Shown in pieces: positions 6,966 to 59,680 of a stretch of DNA of 64,000 nt. Below the pieces are notes generated by a model. It saw nothing but the letters and a program-made list of their open reading frames with translations. It was not told where the DNA came from and did no database searches. This stretch comes from Patescibacteria group bacterium (GTDB lineage Bacteria; Patescibacteriota; Microgenomatia; UBA1406; GWC2-37-13), in contig BPJE01000001.1 in assembly GCA_026004455.1 (NCBI GenBank), forward strand, positions 1 to 64,000, in the 5' to 3' direction. How positions within the stretch are numbered: position 1 is the first letter of the stretch; each line of letters opens with the position of its first letter. The translations under genes were made by a program, and so were the position numbers.

Positions 6966-7719
6966 TTAAGTTAAAACCAAGACCTGTTTTTCAGTTACAG
7001 CGATTGTGTGCTCAAAACAAGCTGTTAAACTTTTATCACGGCTAATTATTGACCAATCATTATCTTTTTCATAGGCAATTTCTTCAGTTCCCATCGAATA
7101 AATCACTTCAATAGCAATTGTTAATCCAGGTCTTATAATCAAAGTCTTTTCTGTTGGTCTTTCTCGAAAATTAAAAACATAAGGCTCCATATGGAGCTTT
7201 TTTCCAATACCATGACCAGTTAAATCTTTTAAAATAAAATAACCGGCTTTAGTTATTTCATCTTCAATTGTCTCTGATACTTTTCCTAATCTTTGACCCA
7301 CTCTTACTTGATTAATAGCTTTTTTTAAAGTTCTTTTTCCAACTTCTAAAAAATTTATAATTTCTTTGTTATCTGTTTTACCAACAACAAAAGTTGTCGC
7401 ATAATCAGTATGATATCCTTTAAAATACATACCAATATCTACTGTTAAGATATCGCCATTTTTTAAAACTCTATCTGAGGGAGGCGTATGAACCACTTGT
7501 TCATTAATTGGTAAACAAGTTGTCCAATAATAATTTTTTTACTCTTTTAAAAGATGACTCGCCTCCTTTTTCTTTTATTAATCTTTCTGCTTCTTGATCA
7601 ATATATTTTGTTGTTACACCAACTTTAATTTTTGGTAAAAGCTCTTTAACTACCTCTCTCAATTTTGCACCACCTTCAGCCATTATTTTTATCTCTTCCT
7701 CAGTTTTATAATCTATCAT
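6966..7719 (-). CDS. map: Methionine aminopeptidase, split by a frameshift
   Basis: Map removes the initiator methionine from nascent proteins. The N-terminal piece (7719 to 7504) carries YKTEEEIKIMAEGGAKLREV. The C-terminal piece continues with VHTPPSDRVLKNGDILTVDI, DYATTF, DLTGHGIGKKLHMEP and the final AFEHT-like CFEHTIAVTE, providing the metal-binding Asp, Asp, His, Glu, Glu set. The frame changes at an A7 run on the coding strand (T7 at 7534-7540). Removing one A joins them as SFKRVKNYYWTTCLPINEQV, a sensible substrate-pocket segment. The start overlaps the preceding kinase stop (ATGA). Like rpoA, this is an essential gene, so error or slippage is more likely than decay. Confidence 0.92.
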
Positions 7720-8262
7720 TCTGTATAATAAATAATCCTATAAACTTCTTCTAATTTATCATGAAAATCTTCAAGAGCAAAATTATTTTTCACTAAAAAA
7801 TCAGCATAAGCAATTGTTGGTGCCATATTAATACCAATTAACTCATCAAGATCCCTCTCTTCACCATAAAGTTTATTTCTCTCTTTTCTTTTAAGTAATC
7901 TTTTCCAGCGTAATTCTTTATCAGCATAAATTGCCAATAAATATATTTTTACATCAGATAAAGCTTTTTTTAAATAAAGATATTCTTCCCAAGATCTTAA
8001 ACCATCAATAACTAATATCATATTCTTTTTTAAAATATCTTTTATTTTTTTTTCATTCATAATCGCTAAAGCTGCCATACCATATTTTTCTCTCAACTGC
8101 GTTCTTACTTTTTTATGAACTTCTTCAATATGAGGTAATTTATTTTTTTTCAATATATTCATTAATAATTTTTCCAAATGAAATAACAGGTAAACCTCTT
8201 GATTCAAAAAATTTTGCTGCATCAGTTTTTCCAGCTCCTGGCAAACCAACAATAGCAATAAT
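7716..8262 (-). CDS. Second P-loop kinase domain fused behind adenylate kinase (frameshifted)
   Basis: Behind the adenylate kinase sequence the protein continues with a second Walker A, IAIVGLPGAGKTDAAKFFES. After a frame change it runs EEVHKKVRTQLREKYGMAAL, VIDGLRSWEEYLYLKK and ERDLDELIGINMAPTIAYAD. This resembles the archaeal-type dephospho-CoA-kinase-like group (UPF0200), predicted nucleotide kinases of unknown substrate. The break lies in an A8 coding-strand run (8143-8150); seven A gives EYIEKNKLPHIEEVHKK, joining both parts smoothly. The end overlaps map by four bases. The function is unproven; a role in nucleotide or cofactor phosphorylation is inferred from the fold and the fusion. 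Confidence 0.75.
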
Positions 8263-8847
8263 TTTTTTATTTTTTATTTGCCAAGACTGAACTTTATTTT
8301 TTATTAATTGTTTACCTAAACTTTTTAAAATTTGTTGATTAACTTCTTCAATTGTTTGTGTTCCATCAATTTCTACTAATTTTTTTTGTTTTCGATAATA
8401 ATCTAAAACTGGAATCGTAAATTTTTTGAATTGCTCAATTCGTTTTTTTATTGCCGGAATTGTTTCATCATCTCTATCTTGACTATTTCTATATACTAAT
8501 CGATAAATTGCTTCTTTTTCTGGTATATCTAAATAAATAACTTTATCAACATTATTAATAAATTTTTCTGCTTGATTTAAAGTTCTAGGAAATCCATCTA
8601 AAATATAACCTTTTTTGTATTCTGGTCTTTTTAAATATGAATTAACAATCTCAATTGTTTTATCATCAGGAATTAATAAACCACTGTTCATTATTACTTT
8701 AATGTATTTTCCTAGTTTAGTTTTTTCTTTTGCTAACTGTCTAAAAATATGACCCGTTGATAAATAAGGTATTCCTAACTGTTTAGACAATAAATTTCCT
8801 TGAGTTGATTTCCCCGAACCCTGAATACCAATTAGAACTAATTTCAT
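8140..8847 (-). CDS. adk: Adenylate kinase (N-terminal part of a fusion)
   Basis: Adenylate kinase interconverts ATP+AMP and 2 ADP. Residues 1-190 show the P-loop IGIQGSGKSTQGNLLSKQLG, the AMP-site segment YLSTGHIFRQLAKE, the GYILDGFPRTLNQAEKF motif and a short LID with RDDETIPAIKKRIEQF. No zinc-binding LID cysteines are present, so this is the short-LID form. Position between secY/rpmG and map is the classical one. From about residue 196 a second P-loop begins without a stop, showing a fused nucleotide kinase domain. The reading frame then closes early at a homopolymer. Confidence 0.93.
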   Translation of the reverse strand: MKLVLIGIQGSGKSTQGNLLSKQLGIPYLSTGHIFRQLAKEKTKLGKYIKVIMNSGLLIPDDKTIEIVNSYLKRPEYKKGYILDGFPRTLNQAEKFINNVDKVIYLDIPEKEAIYRLVYRNSQDRDDETIPAIKKRIEQFKKFTIPVLDYYRKQKKLVEIDGTQTIEEVNQQILKSLGKQLIKNKVQSWQIKNKKIIAIVGLPGAGKTDAAKFFESRGLPVISFGKIINEYIEKK

Positions 8848-51535: not shown

Positions 51536-52306
51536 TCAATGATGTAAAATCGATTTAATATTTGCTTTATTGTTTTGGCGATAGTGAAAGCCTCTAATAC
51601 ATACTATAGGAATATTTCTACCTCTTTGTCCCATGATAAGTGACGCTTGCGCTGCCAGTAAATCGGAGATTGTTTCTTCTGTTATTTTTGACTTTCCTCC
51701 TTCCAATTGTACTTCATTTACCTGTAAGGGATCTATTCCCGATACCCCGATACTTATTGCGCCTGCTCCTCTGCGGTCTGGTCTACCTTCGCTGTCTGAT
51801 ATGACGACAGCTACATGTTTTTGAGTAAGGTTTTCAATTTCCTGGCGAATAGTAGCAGCTGATTTGTCGGGATCTTCTGGGAGTACAATAGCTGTTTTAT
51901 CATCTAACTGGTCAACACCAGCTGAAGTAAGAATAAAACCCAATCTATGCCTAGAAATAATTCTACCGTTTGTAATAGTATAGCTTTGGGAATGATCAAG
52001 TATTAATTGAATAAGTTGCGGGGATTTTCTACCCAACCTTTTATATAATTGTCGTGCTTCTTCTGTAGGATCTATTGCTGTTAAATCTACAACTCGTCCC
52101 TCCGATTTTGAAACAACTTTAGAAGCGATAACAAAAATGTCCCAATTTTGTACGCCCCCTACAGGTCCCATTTTCTCGACTATCAAAGCTCCTAGATTAT
52201 CTCCTTGTTGTATTTCAGGGATATTGGGAAGAGGAAACGACACAATAATTTCAGATACATTGTTTAACATCTCTGTCTCTAATAAATTTTTAAACCATTC
52301 TTTCAT
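51536..52306 (-). CDS. CofE-like amide ligase (F420-0:L-glutamate ligase family)
   Basis: 256 residues. Family motifs: GDNLGALIVEKMGPVGGVQN, FVIASKVVSKSEGRVVDL, FILTSAGVDQLDDKTAIVLP, VISDSEGRPDRRGAGAISIG and LIMGQRGRNIPIVCIRG. CofE adds glutamate to the lactyl-phosphate of F420-0 using GTP. No other F420 genes (cofC, cofD, cofG, cofH) are in the window, so the true acceptor may differ. It is last in the aroE-to-cofE operon, seven bases after the GT gene. The amide-ligase reaction is inferred from the family. Confidence 0.85.
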   Translation of the reverse strand: MKEWFKNLLETEMLNNVSEIIVSFPLPNIPEIQQGDNLGALIVEKMGPVGGVQNWDIFVIASKVVSKSEGRVVDLTAIDPTEEARQLYKRLGRKSPQLIQLILDHSQSYTITNGRIISRHRLGFILTSAGVDQLDDKTAIVLPEDPDKSAATIRQEIENLTQKHVAVVISDSEGRPDRRGAGAISIGVSGIDPLQVNEVQLEGGKSKITEETISDLLAAQASLIMGQRGRNIPIVCIRGFHYRQNNKANIKSILHH

Positions 52307-52313
52307 AATTATA

Positions 52314-53465
52314 TTAAAAACCTAACTTTTTGACAAGCTTTTTTCTAATATTGGTTTTTTGATGCTTTATTATTATATCAGCTTTCTCTGCCGTATAACA
52401 ATCTATTTCATTAAAATAAGTTAGAACTCTTAACAGATAAAGTGGTAGTAAGCTTTTGGTTAAAATTTCAATATCCTTATGTGTAAGATCAAGTGTCAAT
52501 ATTTTAAATAGATAATCAACAATTATATCCACCCAATGTTTCGAACTTATCGAGAAATTACTATTCCTAAGTCGTTGATAGTAATTTATTCCTATTATAT
52601 TTTTGTAGTTAAAACAGACAATTTCTTTTATCGAAAAGTTATAAAGGTTGTTTATCTTATTAACTTCGGGTTTTGATACGTATTTTTCATCAGCTATTTT
52701 GTTTTTATAAAGACTTTCTGTTTTGTTTGATTTGATAATCATTAGAATTTTGTGCCTATTTCTATTAATTAGGTTTAAGGTACTAAAAGCTTCGCCAGTG
52801 AAAGTTGGAATAATTTTTCCAAAGCTTGGATTATGTATTTTTTTATCTAGCTCTTGTTGCTTGATTTTGTACCCTTTTATTAAAGCAGTTATGCTAATTA
52901 GGCTATCAATTCCATATAAAAAGTCATAGTCTGTAGTAAAATTATTAAGTACAGCTTTGACTAATCGTCGACTCAAACCAAAATCGCCGGCTATCGGCTG
53001 CACCATGTCATAACCAAAACAAGTATACACAATTGGAGAACTAAAATGGTTTGTCGTATTGCCTTCATAACGGTTTCTTGAATATATAGGTGTAACGTAA
53101 TCTACATTTTCGAATACGATCGGGCTAAGAAACTTGTTAATCCAGACAGGAGAAATCGATTTTAAATCAGCATCGATCATTAAAAAATATTTTCCGTTTT
53201 GTTTATACGCATACTTAAAACCCGTCTCAATACTATATCCTTTACCAGTTTTTGCTTTTGAACATTTTAAGGTAATTTTGAGGCTATCGGTGTTTGTTGA
53301 TTTAAATTTATTAACAGTATTGTCTTGACTATTACTATCAGAATTAATCAGATATCTTGAAAATTTTGGAAAAAATTGAGTTAATCCTTGATCAATAATT
53401 TTAGTTACAAATGATATGTTTGCCTCTTCATTTAATGATGGAATGACAACAAATATCTTTTTCAT
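52314..53465 (-). CDS. Glycosyltransferase 2, glucosylglycerate-synthase-like
   Basis: 383 residues. GT-A start IFVVIPSLNEEANISFVTKI; KTGKGYSIETGFKYA; MIDADLKSISPVWI (DxD). Then comes a segment recalling glucosylglycerate/mannosylglycerate synthases: RNRYEGNTTNHFSSPIVYTC and QPIAGDFGLSRRLVK, with YGIDSLISITALIKGYKI. A C-terminal helical region of about 130 residues follows. That family glycosylates glycerate or 3-phosphoglycerate, often as compatible-solute synthesis. Here it sits two bases after the HprK-like gene in the accessory operon. The acceptor is unknown. Confidence 0.75.
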   Translation of the reverse strand: MKKIFVVIPSLNEEANISFVTKIIDQGLTQFFPKFSRYLINSDSNSQDNTVNKFKSTNTDSLKITLKCSKAKTGKGYSIETGFKYAYKQNGKYFLMIDADLKSISPVWINKFLSPIVFENVDYVTPIYSRNRYEGNTTNHFSSPIVYTCFGYDMVQPIAGDFGLSRRLVKAVLNNFTTDYDFLYGIDSLISITALIKGYKIKQQELDKKIHNPSFGKIIPTFTGEAFSTLNLINRNRHKILMIIKSNKTESLYKNKIADEKYVSKPEVNKINNLYNFSIKEIVCFNYKNIIGINYYQRLRNSNFSISSKHWVDIIVDYLFKILTLDLTHKDIEILTKSLLPLYLLRVLTYFNEIDCYTAEKADIIIKHQKTNIRKKLVKKLGF

Positions 53466-53467
53466 AA

Positions 53468-54491
53468 CTATAACACTGCATTAATAATTTCATTTGCAAC
53501 ATTTTTCGGATTATTGCCATATGCGTATATAAAATTAGCACTCATTATTGCTTCAATCGTTTGATCTCTTTGTCTTACCAATTCTTCCGAGTCCATCGAG
53601 GAGAAATTGCCGCCTATTACTTCATTGTCTAATATTAAAGGCGTTACGACGCCCCTTATATATCTGGCAAAATTTTCCCTCAATCTTAATACTTCCTGTA
53701 TTCTTCGTGCTCCCCTCTCAATCATTGTTTTGTCATTAAAGGGATGGAGATTAATTCTTATTACAGCTGAAAGTCCTTGCGTGTCTTGACCAATAACAAT
53801 TCCTATTTCCTCCGGTATTAGAGTAATTTTTTCTTCATAAGGGTTTCCTTCACTTAAATGTTCGATGCCTAATTGAGGTAAATAGTATCTAATTACTGCT
53901 TGACGAACATCATATATTCTTGTTCCGGCTCTTATAAAAAGTCCTGCAACAGGTTGATCCTCAACTAAAACTAAATCATTTCCAATGAGATTAAGATTAT
54001 AATATAGACCAAAAACAAGTGATAATAATGTTTTTTCCGCTGCCCTTATCTCCAAGTATTAATAAACTCTTACCATCTTTTGTGCTAACGGCGGCAGCAT
54101 GCAGACTGGACATATGGAGTACTTCTTGTCTTAATCTTTCAGCGATATTATATGCAATATATGGAAGTCTCCTAGAAAATTCTTTTCTTTGGAATGGCCC
54201 CGATAATCGGAAATGTTTAGAATCGAACATCTCAAGTGATGCTTCCGGCTTATCTTCTAAGAGTAGATCGACGTTAGGATATTGACTAAAATTAGAAGGG
54301 TTATTGGTAAGAATTAAACCTCCTGGTAGTCTTCTTTCAATATGATTTTGGGGATCAAATATATCACGCAGGTTAAATCCAATACTTTTTGAAGAAGAAA
54401 CATTTACACAGGTGAATCCCGTTACCAACGAAAACATAAATTCTGATTTACTCTCTTTAAATATTGGCGTGTTCTCTTTCATGTTTAACAT
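53468..54491 (-). CDS. HprK-like P-loop protein, split by a frameshift
   Basis: Two overlapping frames form one protein. The upstream part (54491 to 53997) ends with SSLHAAAVSTKDGKSLLILG and the Walker A GDKGSGK. The downstream part continues TLLSLVFGLYYNLNLIGNDL, then LFIRAGTRIYDVRQAVIRYY. Removing one A from the run of six (54031-54036 on the plus strand) restores GDKGSGKTLLSLVF. The HAAAV-P-loop-ND order resembles HPr kinase-related ATPases often found in biosynthetic clusters. Catalysis is not proven; a kinase or ATP-dependent scaffold is inferred. Confidence 0.65.
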
Positions 54492-54493
54492 GT

Positions 54494-55726
54494 TTAATAT
54501 GTAAAATTTGTCCTCGGAATTAATATCTCATCATATACTATTTTCTTTGTCCAATCTCTTTTTTCTAACGTCGCTAAAATTGTTTCTTTCAATGACCTAC
54601 TGTTGATTTTTTTTGAGGTGCTTACCAATAAATTGTGTGGACTAAATAAAGGGTCGGCGATTCTTGTTATTGCTATAACTTGTGCTTGACAGTTGTATTG
54701 TAAAGCGATATTTTTGGCTAATGTGTCTACTACCACTCCTAAAACTTTTCCCACATGGTATACTGGATTTTTTCCCCAAGCAGCTTCCATTGTGTAAGTT
54801 CTAAAAGAAGGAATTATACCTCTCCTATTATTTCCTCTTCCAACAACACCTTCTTCACCATAGTCTAATGCTGAACCTGAAACATTACAATAATAGCCTT
54901 CTATTTTTTTAATATTTTCCTTTTTTATACTACGGTAATGATTATTTACATAAATTTTTACCTTAAAATCTTTGCCTAAATGTTTTTTTGCGATATCTAA
55001 AAGCGATTCTCTAATGAACTCAACTTTTTCTTTATAGAAATCATAACTGGGAGTTTCGTTTACGATAAAGGGAACACATAACGTCACATCAATTTGTTTC
55101 TTTTTTCTGACAACCATTACCTTAATATCATGACCAATAAATTTATATTTGGGATTCCTGTCACCATGATAAAAAAAATTCTCCATCTCTAAAGTTAATT
55201 TCTCCGTTGGTGTCAAAGGCCAGTAACCAATAACAGTAGATGTATCATTCGCCCGAGCCAGTTTATGTTCTGGTAGATCGTCAAGCGAAACTGGATTAAA
55301 CCAACGGGGATTTTTTGAATAAGAGGTGCTTTCATCAATAATTTTTACCCATTTGTTGATATCTAAATGAGGTAATGTTTTTTTCAGTTGCAAATTAATT
55401 GCTTTTTTAAATATATCTTTCAAAGGAATTTTGGCATTACTGAAAACAGGACTAATGCGACCATTTACCAAAACTCTGATTGGTTTGACCATTTTAGCTG
55501 AACCCCAATCATAAATTTTAATAAGACTACCCATCACACAAACTTTATCAACATTGTGATGAAGTACTACCCCAAATTTTTCCAGGCAATAACGAGAATA
55601 ATCGTTTGATATTTTCTCAGCTATCCCATCAGCCAGTGTATCAGGATGTCCAACTCCTTTTCGTTCAACAATTTCCAATTCATAATCTGAAGGAACACGC
55701 AGATTTGAATTTATAAAAATGTTCAT
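54494..55726 (-). CDS. S-adenosylmethionine synthetase, archaeal type
   Basis: 410 residues. The archaeal MAT hallmark ERKGVGHPDTLADGIAE lies near residue 20-40. Also present are VLHHNVDKVCVMGSLIK, DESTSYSKNPRWFNPVSLDD, KLARANDTSTVIGYWPL, GEEGVVGRGNNRRGIIPSFR and AITRIADPLFSPHNLLVSTS. This family (about 400 residues) is distinct from the bacterial MetK of about 385 residues. It makes SAM from methionine and ATP. It begins 20 bases after the Gfo/Idh gene. Archaeal-type MAT in a bacterial operon suggests lateral transfer. Confidence 0.93.
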   Translation of the reverse strand: MNIFINSNLRVPSDYELEIVERKGVGHPDTLADGIAEKISNDYSRYCLEKFGVVLHHNVDKVCVMGSLIKIYDWGSAKMVKPIRVLVNGRISPVFSNAKIPLKDIFKKAINLQLKKTLPHLDINKWVKIIDESTSYSKNPRWFNPVSLDDLPEHKLARANDTSTVIGYWPLTPTEKLTLEMENFFYHGDRNPKYKFIGHDIKVMVVRKKKQIDVTLCVPFIVNETPSYDFYKEKVEFIRESLLDIAKKHLGKDFKVKIYVNNHYRSIKKENIKKIEGYYCNVSGSALDYGEEGVVGRGNNRRGIIPSFRTYTMEAAWGKNPVYHVGKVLGVVVDTLAKNIALQYNCQAQVIAITRIADPLFSPHNLLVSTSKKINSRSLKETILATLEKRDWTKKIVYDEILIPRTNFTY

Positions 55727-55746: not shown

Positions 55747-57566
55747 CTAATAACTAATATTCGAATATAATGACTCGATAAAACGTATTACTCTTTTTAG
55801 TTCAGATACATGAATCAATAATTTACATTTAGGATTGTCTATACCCAATAAATAATCACTTAAGACTTTAATTAGTTTACTGTGTCCATTACCGTAAGGG
55901 TGAGTGTTTGGTGTTTCTAAAGGAAGATTATTAAGTTTTTCTTTAAGATCAAGATGTATTATTTTGTCAAGAGCAATTCCCCCTATTTTAATCGTACCTT
56001 TTGTACCGGAGATGAAAATACTAGACTCGACATTTTTGTTTTTTGAGTGAAGAAATATCTCAATACTTCCTATCTGTCCTTTTTTAAGTTTTATTAAAGA
56101 AATAAGTACGTCTTCGATCTCCAAATTCTTATGAATTTTTTTTGTGTAAGTTGTTATTCTATCAGGCTGTAATTCTAATATGCGATTTATTACTTCTAAG
56201 CTATGAATTGCTTGATTAAATAAAAGCCCGCCCGAATATAATTTGTTTCCGTGCCAGTCTGAATAATATTTTTTATCCCGCCACCACCGAAGATTTATTG
56301 CAAAGTAGTTTATTTTACCAAGTTTCTTGTGCTTAACTAATTCATAAAGAAATTCAATTGCTGGATTGAAATTATTCTGAAATACAACAAAAACATTGTC
56401 TCTAATCTTCTTATTACGTAAGGTTTTTATCAAGCTTTTACTGGATAAGGCAAATGGTTTTTCACAAAGAACTTTTTTGTTGTTTGCTACTGCTTTTTTT
56501 GCTATTTCTATATGAGTATTGTGAGGAGTACAAATGTTGACAACGTCGATAGTTTTATCTTTTAGTAGGTCATTTAATGACTTATACGAAATTGCATCAT
56601 ATTTCAGTGCGAATCGGAATTTTTTTAATTTGTTTATATCAAATACGCCTCTCAATTCAGAATTATCATTTTCGTTAATTGCAATTCCGTGTTTCTGTGA
56701 TATCCTCCCCGCACCAATAACCGCGTATTTAATTCTTTTTTGGGATAAATACGCTTTTAACTTATTTAAAGATGTTAAAGTTGCCTGAATTTTATTATTT
56801 TTCACATGTGTTTCTATACTCAAAATAACATCATTTTTTATATGTGTTCTGATATCAGTTAATATTCTTTTATAATTGATTTCACCTTCTCCTAGAGGTA
56901 CATATTTAAAGGGTTTTTTAATAATATCCTTTAAATGTATATATTTAATAAAATTTCTTAGCTCCTGAATATCTTTTTCATAAACAAAATCACCTACCTG
57001 ATAAAAGTTAGCAACATCCATCCATAATTTAAAATTCGGATTATTAATTTTCCTAAAAGTCCTTTTAATATCATTTTTCCTGTAAACTGTGCATATTGGC
57101 TCATTTTCAAGCAATAAATATTTATTGTATTTTTTTGCCTGTTCCAGGGCATATCCTAATAGTTCATCATTCCAAAATATATCGGGTTTTAATGATCCGT
57201 CGGATAAGTTTGAAAAAATCCTTATAAAATCTGTTTCCAGTAATACTGCAATATTTAATGTTTTTTCAATATATTGTTTTTTTTATTTATACTTAATATT
57301 GGATTAAAAAAGAAACTGTCAAACTTAATTGAAGAAATTGGTTTATTATAAAACCATTTAAAAAGTGGCGAGGCAATTGCGACAACTTTTAGTCGTTTTT
57401 TTAAGATTTGTTTTTTAAATTCTTTTATCTCATCTAAAGAATAATCAAGCAGATTCTTCTTATTAATACTTCTCAATTCAATATAGCTCAGTTTGTATTT
57501 AATAAAAAAATCAGTTGCTTCATTGATATCGTCTGATATCTCGTCGCAATTAATTGTTATTATCAT
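55747..57566 (-). CDS. Sugar-isomerase-type TIM barrel fused to Gfo/Idh/MocA dehydrogenase (frameshifted)
   Basis: Part 1 (57566 to about 57277) starts IITINCDEISDDINEATDFF and has YIELRSINKKNLLDYS and VVAIASPLFKWFY, as in xylose-isomerase-like epimerases. The frame then breaks at an A8 run (57277-57284). In the shifted frame LLETDFIRIFSNLSD and LLLENEPICT continue the barrel, followed by DVANFYQVG and IHLKDI. From about residue 130 of the second part comes a Gfo/Idh module: KYAVIGAGRISQKHGIAI, ICTPHNTHIEIAKKAV, CEKPFA and GGLLFNQAIHSLEVINRI. Repair needs +1 or -2 A, unlike the other breaks. A fused isomerase-dehydrogenase is clear; its sugar substrate is unknown. Confidence 0.8.
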
Positions 57567-57570
57567 ATTT

Positions 57571-58443
57571 TTACAGTATTTTTATTAACTTCGGTTCAAC
57601 CTCCTTCACGGATTTTTGAGTAACATTTTTTCCTGTCCATAGCTTAAATGCTATTATTCCCTGATAAATCATCATTGTTATGCCAGGCTGGATTTTCGCA
57701 CCATACATTTCTGCATTTTTCAAAAAGGCAGTTTTATATGGATTGAAGACTACGTCGAAAAACAATTTATTAGAAAAATCTGACTTCTTTGAGCACTCTT
57801 TTATAATTCCAGCTTTAATTACAGAATTATGTTTGTTAGGTGTCATTCCAATAGACGTAGCATTACATATAACTAAAGCTTGACAAATTGGCGTTCTAAT
57901 ATCATCATTATGACTTAAGAAGCATACCCTCTTTTTATAATCTTTAAATAAAGACTTTGTTCTTTTGGATATCGGTAATCTATAGACGACAGTAACCTTG
58001 TTTGTGTTTTTCAAGGCACCATGGATGATCGCTCTTGCTGCTCCTCCGGTTCCAAAAATAACAATTTGGTCGTTTTTATTGATTTTTCTTTTTAACCCTA
58101 TCTCGATGGATTTAATCGCACCATACCAATCAGTATTGTATCCTTCCAGAAAACCGTTTTTATTAACTATTGTGTTGACGGCACCGATTTTCTCCGCATC
58201 GTTATCGATCTTATCCAAATATTTCATAATGTCCTTTTTGTAAGGAAGTGTAACATTAGCACCTTTTATATTTAATACTCTTATTCCTTCTACTGCCTTT
58301 TTTAAGTTTAAATTAGCGGAATCTGGGCATACATTAAGTTTCACGTGTGAATATTCAAGATTGTGTTTGGAAGCGAAGTAATTGAAAAGGTATGGTGAAA
58401 TACTATGATCAGTAGGACAGCCTATTAGGGCGGTAACAATCAT
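57571..58443 (-). CDS. aroE: Shikimate dehydrogenase-like
   Basis: 290 residues. Substrate motifs: GCPTDHSISPYLFNYFA, GANVTLPYKKDIM and GAVNTIVNKNGFLEGYNTDW. NADP site: IVIFGTGGAARAIIHGAL; C-terminal ITMMIYQGIIAFKLWTG. It reduces 3-dehydroshikimate (or a related quinate-like compound). No other shikimate-pathway gene is in the window. It is first in the six-gene operon, five bases before the TIM-barrel gene. It may act on a modified shikimate in the local pathway rather than in aromatic amino acid synthesis. Confidence 0.88.
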   Translation of the reverse strand: MIVTALIGCPTDHSISPYLFNYFASKHNLEYSHVKLNVCPDSANLNLKKAVEGIRVLNIKGANVTLPYKKDIMKYLDKIDNDAEKIGAVNTIVNKNGFLEGYNTDWYGAIKSIEIGLKRKINKNDQIVIFGTGGAARAIIHGALKNTNKVTVVYRLPISKRTKSLFKDYKKRVCFLSHNDDIRTPICQALVICNATSIGMTPNKHNSVIKAGIIKECSKKSDFSNKLFFDVVFNPYKTAFLKNAEMYGAKIQPGITMMIYQGIIAFKLWTGKNVTQKSVKEVEPKLIKIL

Positions 58444-58531: not shown

Positions 58532-59680
58532 ATCCTCTTGAATAATTAATTTAGGGTAAGTAATATAGTGGTATATGAGAAACTATATTTCTATCCAACC
58601 CTATCTTAACGTTAATAATTTGAAAAGCTACTACCTTAAAGCCAAAGATCCAATAGAAGCTCGTCAATGGCACACCTTATGGCTTCTTGCCAAAGGAAAA
58701 AAAGTCAAAGAAGTAGCTGAGATTACCGGTTACACTGAGTATTGGGTAAGAGCAATTGTTCGTCGTTACAATAAAAAAGGAAAGAAAGCTATTGGAGACG
58801 CAAGACATAATAATAAAGGAGGCAAACCTCTTCTTTCTGATAAACAAAAAGAGGAACTAATAGAAGCTTTAAAAAAACCTCCTTCAGACGGCGGATTATG
58901 GAACGGAGTTAAGGTTGCCAACTGGATTAAAGAAAAAACAGGAAGAAGCTTTATTTATCCTCAACGAGGTTGGAAATATTTAGTTGATTTGGGTTTTTCT
59001 TTGAAAGTTCCCCGACCAACTCATAAAAAAGCCAATAAAAAGGCGCAAAATGATTTTAAAAAAAACTCTTACAGTTGTAAAAAAAATAAAAGCAAAACAT
59101 CCTGAAAAAACAATAGAGGTATGGGCTTTTGATGAACACCGTGTTGGTCTTCAACCAATACTACGGCGTGTCTGGGCAAAAAAAGGAATACCAACAACCG
59201 TTAAGATCAATCCCCATTATAAATGGATCTGGATTTATGCTTTTGTTAATCCTCAAAAAGGAGAAACATATTGGTTGTTATTACCAACAGTTAATATTCC
59301 TCTTTTTAATCTTGCCTTAAAAGAGTTTACCAAAGCTAATAATGTTGGTAGTGATAAACTAATTATTCTTGTTATTGATCAAGCAGGGTTTCACAACGGT
59401 GATAAAATAGAGATACCACAGGGAATAATACCAGTATTTCTTCCTTCGTATTCTCCAGAACTTCAACCAGCAGAAAGACTTTGGCCGCTATCAAATGAAG
59501 GAGTCGCCAACAGAAGTTTTAAAGATCTTGATGAACTAGAAGAAGTTCAGATTAAAAGAATAAAGAAGCTAATAAACCAGAAAAAATTAATTTCCGCAAA
59601 AACTCTATTTAACTGGTGGCCGATAGTTTAATCCTATAAAAGACTAATAATATTAACTAATTAAGAGGAAGTGATATTAT
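58522..59680 (+). mobile_element. IS630-family insertion sequence
   Basis: The element is bounded by imperfect inverted repeats. The left reads ATAATATCAAATCCTCTT from 58522. The right, read on the other strand from 59680, is ATAATATCACTTCCTCTT. Both ends continue with similar A+T-rich sequence. It holds one transposase in two overlapping frames. IS630 elements target TA, but I cannot define a clean TA duplication here. It lies at the upstream end of the accessory operon. Confidence 0.8.
58575..59631 (+). CDS. IS630-type transposase in two frames
   Basis: The first frame (58575-59105) holds helix-turn-helix motifs, VKEVAEITGYTEYWVRAIVR and a winged region with GRSFIYPQRGWKYLVDLGF. The second (59050-59631) carries the DDE catalytic domain: EVWAFDEHRVGLQP (Asp), ILVIDQAGFHNG (Asp) and FLPSYSPELQPAERLWPLSN (Glu). 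They join at an A8 run (59058-59065) where one A fewer gives DFKKTLTVVKKIKAK. Either a programmed frameshift, as in several IS families, or a sequence error like those elsewhere in the window. Confidence 0.9.

Follow-up and report, generated by a model that had tools for sequence, protein, structure and literature searches.

A TIM barrel-Gfo/Idh/MocA dehydrogenase fusion in Patescibacteria and the gene cassette in which it is encoded

The described proteins that lie closest to the locus considered here belong to two families. Among the Gfo/Idh/MocA dehydrogenases these are WlbA, GenD2 and KanD2 (PDB 3q2i, 3q2k, 6nor, 6jw6), and among the AP_endonuc_2-type TIM barrels they are Art22, UlaE, MJ1311, IolI and AsbF, which bind metal through an E-D-H-E ligand pattern. 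Members of both families are also encoded side by side in IolE/IolG-like pairs, as in Paenibacillus (L011) and Cetobacterium (L010), where a TIM barrel gene is followed within a few bases by a Gfo gene. Unlike the protein discussed below, the products of these pairs are separate, at about 25% identity, and no other gene of the present cassette was found in the stretch. Paenibacillus and Cetobacterium had surfaced as candidate fusions because one tblastn piece spanned both domains, but each proved to hold two neighbouring genes that are distinct although they share one reading frame. In the window, which takes up the first 64 kb of contig 1 in a genome of 0.89 Mb whose relatives are Patescibacteria, the dehydrogenase is instead fused behind the barrel.

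The fused gene lies on the minus strand and is distributed over two reading frames. The N-terminal third of the AP_endonuc_2-type barrel occupies 57255-57566, a 103-residue ORF that can be aligned with the first 100 residues of the intact fusions described below, and the rest of the barrel together with a complete Gfo/Idh/MocA dehydrogenase is found in frame at 55747-57282, as an open frame of 511 residues. The break falls in a run of eight A (T8 on the plus strand) at 57277-57284, where the first-pass annotation had placed a single frame change. Pfam profiles matched to the 511-residue frame locate AP_endonuc_2 at residues 4-176 (54 bits against a cut-off of 31.1, for the C-terminal part of the barrel alone), GFO_IDH_MocA (PF01408) at residues 184-292 (87.4 bits against 24) and GFO_IDH_MocA_C3 (PF22725) at residues 312-431 (61.1 bits against 27), with PF02894 matched in the Gfo half as well (48 bits against 22.9). 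As all of these scores exceed the curated cut-offs, they lie far beyond chance, and the two modules recognised in the first-pass annotation are confirmed. The metal-ligand columns E, D, H and E by which an AP_endonuc_2 barrel is identified are conserved, and the Gfo half carries the glycine-rich motif VIGAGRIS, the EKP motif CEKPF and the His motif NQAIHS, each with a counterpart in both intact fusions. Motif residues are intact on either side of the frame break.

In agreement with the first-pass annotation, no in-frame stop interrupts the junction of the two modules. The segment IETHVKNNKIQATLTSLNKL, however, is not the linker that it had been taken for, as it comprises the final barrel strand, on which a metal-ligand Glu lies, followed by the helix at the C-terminal end, with the Gfo domain beginning a few residues later. 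Counting every frame, the first ATG, GTG or TTG encountered upstream of the Rossmann strand is a GTG in frame with it, at a distance of 69 bases; there is none within 68 bases, and a separate start for the Gfo domain is thus unlikely.

A search with the neighbouring glycosyltransferase, which covered 84,980 species by one genome apiece, led to two loci in which the fusion is encoded in one intact frame, on the Candidatus Woesebacteria contig MGGO01000031 (L042; 7154-8983, 610 residues) and the Candidatus Shapirobacteria contig JAGOPG010000020 (L043; 4383-6236, 618 residues). The two frames of the window, joined at the A8 run, give 606 residues. The intact proteins are 45% and 42% identical to that of the window, respectively, and 54% identical to each other, and neither has an in-frame start codon near the TIM/Gfo junction. 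The fusion is therefore genuine: homologues that were always separate would have spoken against it, and the search for the same domain pair in other genomes that the first-pass annotation had proposed returned intact fusions instead. Because the same fusion stands as one frame in two other Patescibacteria, the frame break of the window is local. The fusion was detected in three of the 374 genomes of the class, namely that of the window and two with proteins 100% and 53% identical to the Woesebacteria fusion, the latter corresponding, by profile scores, to the Shapirobacteria locus. It was absent from the other genomes of the genus and family that were searched and, apart from the window, from 380 genomes drawn from the phylum; the 511-residue frame, used as a single-protein query against genome contigs and viral contigs, gave no match.

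An AlphaFold2 model of the Woesebacteria fusion, built from seven sequences (pLDDT 76, pTM 0.76), shows a barrel of eight strands (residues 5-256) followed by a single helix, a Rossmann domain and the Gfo C-terminal domain, in keeping with the proposed architecture. The modelled barrel matches Art22 (Z 25.0), UlaE, IolI, AsbF (Z 23.3) and other isomerases at Z 23-25, and shares fold and ligand pattern with them and with MJ1311. Identity to these enzymes in structural alignments is only 12-18%, and the cassette barrels differ from them in sharing ENEP and HxKD motifs and in being fused to a dehydrogenase. For the Gfo half, Foldseek returns WlbA, inositol dehydrogenases, GenD2 and KanD2 at Z 23-24. 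WlbA, GenD2 and KanD2 supply both the best sequence match and the top structural matches and have the EKP and His motifs in common with the Gfo half, a likeness of sequence and fold at about 20-24% identity over the domain; the reaction known for the WlbA type, a UDP-sugar 3-dehydrogenase, is the oxidation of UDP-GlcNAcA. The comparison does not support the IolG type that had been mentioned for the dehydrogenase: the sequence is nearer to WlbA (PDB 3q2i; 3e-46) than to an IolG-type inositol dehydrogenase (3.5e-19), and the profile for IolG inositol 2-dehydrogenase, TIGR04380, scores 101 bits against an equivalog cut-off of 355.

The fusion is one member of a minus-strand operon that runs from AroE, starting at 58443, to a CofE-like ligase ending at 51536. 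The AroE-like protein of the shikimate dehydrogenase family (57571-58443, 290 residues) scores 82 bits with Shikimate_dh_N and 210 bits with TIGR00507 (cut-off 200), and is 51% and 49% identical to the AroE proteins of the two intact cassettes. Its translation contains HSISP, NVTLPYK and YNTD, which match HSxSP, NVTxPxK and NTD, presumably the substrate-site motifs of AroE. The cassette also includes genes on which the first-pass annotation was silent. An archaeal-type methionine adenosyltransferase (MAT; 54494-55726, 410 residues) matches PF01941 at 272.8 bits against a cut-off of 27. The HprK-like P-loop kinase is again split, by profile matches, into an N-terminal part up to Walker A (53997-54491) and a C-terminal part in another frame (53468-54055), with the break in an A6 run at about 54030-54040. 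Hpr_kinase_C scores only 18-21 bits in the cassette proteins against a cut-off of 33.3, the P-loop region alone matches HprK structures, and the predicted structure (pLDDT 68, pTM 0.66) is unreliable in its N-terminal third. A GT-A glycosyltransferase (GT; 52314-53465, 383 residues) matches Glycos_transf_2 and resembles glucosyl-3-phosphoglycerate synthase (GpgS) and mannosylglycerate synthase (MGS), both of which are among its PDB matches; its score with NF010496, 56 bits, is far under the equivalog cut-off of 262. The ligase of the F420-0:gamma-glutamyl ligase (CofE) family (51536-52306, 256 residues) scores 192 bits with F420_ligase and 191 bits with TIGR01916, above the equivalog cut-off of 181.

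Pfam searches of the genome of the window found neither a bacterial MetK, sought through its C-domain, nor a SAM decarboxylase, which was sought because two relatives carry one nearby. Matches to 3-dehydroquinate (DHQ) synthase and chorismate synthase were likewise absent from this genome, which is 92% complete, and AroE thus probably works inside the cassette and not for chorismate or aromatic amino acids. There is accordingly no sign of an ordinary shikimate pathway that could supply an intermediate to be channelled. Directly upstream of the cassette, a transposase that we take to be IS630-like is encoded in two overlapping frames (58575-59631), a possible vehicle or scar of transfer.

Comparable cassettes are found well outside the host lineage. 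The Woesebacteria and Shapirobacteria cassettes share the order MAT, AroE, TIM-Gfo, HprK-like, GT, CofE, and in both AroE lies directly upstream of the fusion and overlaps it by ATGA. The AroE neighbour noticed in the window is indeed part of the same unit. Three Streptomyces plasmids (NZ_CP109056, at 74007-80458, NZ_CP109316 and CP108998) hold homologues of all cassette genes, apart from AroE in the stretch of CP108998 that was read. Their order differs from that of the window (TIM, Gfo, MAT, HprK-like, GT, CofE, AroE), and TIM and Gfo are unfused, adjacent genes overlapping by ATGA, which bears out the view that these modules are normally separate. The genes of the Streptomyces cassettes are annotated one by one only. 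On a Halorussus plasmid, a stretch of 21 kb includes MAT, AroE, TIM, Gfo, a GT and an HprK-like gene. Other CPR, along with gut Bacilli and Clostridia, have reduced sets, in which CofE, AroE or an HD_4 phosphohydrolase joins the MAT, HprK-like and GT genes, and a partial set is present in a deltaproteobacterial MAG. The Shapirobacteria cassette has as neighbours a SAM decarboxylase, the branched-polyamine synthase BpsA_C and a MetK of the ordinary bacterial type, to which the MAT of the cassette comes in addition. In L026, a further cassette from CPR, GT and MAT are separated by a SAM decarboxylase and a C-methyltransferase. The small HD_4 (SpoT/MESH1-like) phosphohydrolase, missing from the operon of the window, recurs beside the cassette in several phyla (L042, 4480-5010; L046, 1244-1789; L057, 8241-8768; L059, 9432-9980; L028, 7807-8400).

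MAT genes are also found in other company. Two CPR contigs (L027, 1089-4071; L029, 8977-11911) encode MAT, a HAD-like hydrolase, an HprK-like kinase and a different glycosyltransferase-like protein, and the pairing of MAT with HprK thus recurs there without the other cassette genes. The Parageobacillus plasmid NZ_CP040554 (L037, 7972-14825) carries an archaeal-type MAT, myo-inositol-1-phosphate synthase, a PqqD-like protein, a HAD-IIB hydrolase and a weakly HprK-like protein, and is another MAT-centred plasmid cluster. A second type of MAT cluster, on plasmids of Streptomyces NBC_00015 and NBC_01334 (L038, 11021-18162; L039, 11021-18168), comprises a glycosyltransferase, a MAT that falls outside the cassette clade, TIM, Gfo, a hypothetical protein/AAA ATPase, a carbamoyltransferase and a NUDIX protein. 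On a plasmid of the Rickettsiales member Candidatus Megaera polyxenophila (L040, 9747-23580), MAT, a xylose-isomerase-like TIM barrel and NUDIX stand in a row that further includes several oxidoreductases, thymidylate kinase, bisphosphate nucleotidase and adenosine deaminase.

Of the 25 MATs placed in a tree, the 14 from cassettes fall on one side of a branch with support of 100/99, a clade that holds against the other MATs sampled, housekeeping archaeal MATs not being among them. The window, Woesebacteria and Shapirobacteria MATs are placed beside those of the Streptomyces cassettes with support of only 85/81; together with Halorussus, these are the sampled cassettes that have both TIM and Gfo. 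GC3 lies between 23 and 32% in the cassette genes and between 13 and 18% in host genes, and this contrast, together with the absence of the fusion from the rest of the genus, points to horizontal transfer. Viral contigs scanned with the glycosyltransferase and phage records scanned with the MAT gave no match, and there is accordingly no sign of a phage gene set. The fusion itself was probably formed within the CPR branch when a pair of overlapping genes became one, most likely through loss of the stop and start codons in which these translationally coupled genes overlapped.

The frame break in the window is most likely an uncorrected indel error in a homopolymeric A run. At least three further A-run breaks are present in the window: that of the HprK-like gene, which lies inside Walker A (between GSGK and T) and is opposite in sign to that of the fusion; one in map, the methionine aminopeptidase gene (6966-7716), which is split between frames at an A run between GGESSFKRVK and NYYWTT; and one in the adk-kinase gene (7716-8847), in an A8 run. 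Bacteria can hardly do without map, and the only other M24 protein of the genome is longer, at 363 residues, and probably of another type, so that a break in this near-indispensable gene argues for errors left in the assembly. It argues equally, along with the break in the adk-kinase gene and the motif residues preserved on both sides of the breaks, against a decaying pseudogene cluster after transfer, in which the indels would be real and both TIM-Gfo and the HprK-like kinase non-functional in this genome; such decay is unlikely, even with two breaks inside one cassette, an IS630-type transposase directly upstream and a composition unlike that of the host in its favour. Programmed -1 frameshifting or transcript slippage, yielding a short product beside the full-length fusion, is very unlikely. 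The run does read A AAA AAC in the zero frame, a known slippery type, and a -1 shift is what is required; yet neither intact fusion has the long A run, a product ending at the break, inside the N-terminal third of the barrel, would be no more than a fragment, the HprK-like break is opposite in sign, and the window has many runs of eight (31 of A and 42 of T). That two separate overlapping genes were falsely fused through an indel error at their junction would fit the ATGA overlap in Streptomyces and the probable indel errors of the window, but is extremely improbable given the distance to the nearest start codon in any frame, and is refuted by the like fusion of two other genomes unless those carry the same error.

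The enzyme itself is probably bifunctional, a sugar or cyclitol isomerase-dehydrogenase that joins a metal-dependent isomerase- or epimerase-type barrel to an NAD-dependent dehydrogenase of the WlbA/GenD2/KanD2 kind within a horizontally moving, SAM-linked biosynthetic cassette, the product of which is probably a small molecule. The intact E-D-H-E ligands and the EKP and His motifs, taken with the sequence and fold matches, suggest that a ring hydroxyl is oxidised with NAD and that enolisation is assisted by metal. The Gfo half would convert the hydroxyl to a ketone, and the barrel would enolise next to it, resulting in epimerisation, isomerisation or dehydration. AroE would reduce or oxidise a shikimate-like ring, MAT would supply SAM, and the HprK-like, GpgS-like and CofE-like enzymes may phosphorylate, glycosylate and amidate the product. 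Fusion would secure production of both activities at 1:1, and direct channelling between the halves is possible. Against a bifunctional enzyme stand the many reactions that each family spans, the chance that the halves act on different intermediates, the rarity of the fusion in the class and phylum, and the two cassette genes that are broken as sequenced, as the copy in the window could be decaying. A more specific assignment, to a 3-dehydroshikimate- or quinate-type enzyme, would make the barrel an AsbF-like dehydratase, with AroE making or consuming dehydroshikimate, Gfo oxidising a related ring, and channelling between them, as the first-pass annotation had suggested. Among PDB sequences the barrel is matched best by AsbF (7.5e-12), which is probably a 3-dehydroshikimate dehydratase, and AroE is the immediate upstream neighbour in both intact cassettes. 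The margin is small, however, as MJ1311 (1.1e-11) and UlaE (3.1e-11) match almost equally, and the ETHP of AsbF, whose His after the first metal-ligand Glu is presumably the proposed catalytic residue, aligns with ENEP in the cassette barrels, which lack it. AroE is also present in cassettes in which no TIM-Gfo was found (L028, L050, L054, L057), and with the missing DHQ and chorismate synthases weighing further against it, this assignment is unlikely. For the bifunctional ring-modifying enzyme, a wider setting may be considered, tentatively: the cassette may encode an undescribed pathway, shared horizontally by Patescibacteria, Actinomycetota, Bacillota and Haloarchaea, whose product would belong to a new class of small molecules. 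This molecule would be a glycosylated, phosphorylated and amidated ring compound, SAM-modified or SAM-derived, perhaps with polyamine groups in some relatives.

The enzyme families involved are known, while the fusion is new and the conserved combination was not found described; no relevant paper on the cassette, the domain fusion, PF01941 or Art22 was found in the open-access literature subset, which is weak evidence of novelty. Because culturable Streptomyces carry the same genes on plasmids as one compact operon, both the product and the mechanism can be tested directly, and intact, expressible relatives of the fusion exist. The locus also makes an evolutionary step visible, from overlapping separate genes in Streptomyces to one chain in CPR. 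Ultra-small Patescibacteria are thought to be poor in biosynthetic pathways of their own, and a mobile cassette that includes a SAM synthetase of its own, common to Patescibacteria, Streptomyces and one haloarchaeon, stands in contrast to that picture.
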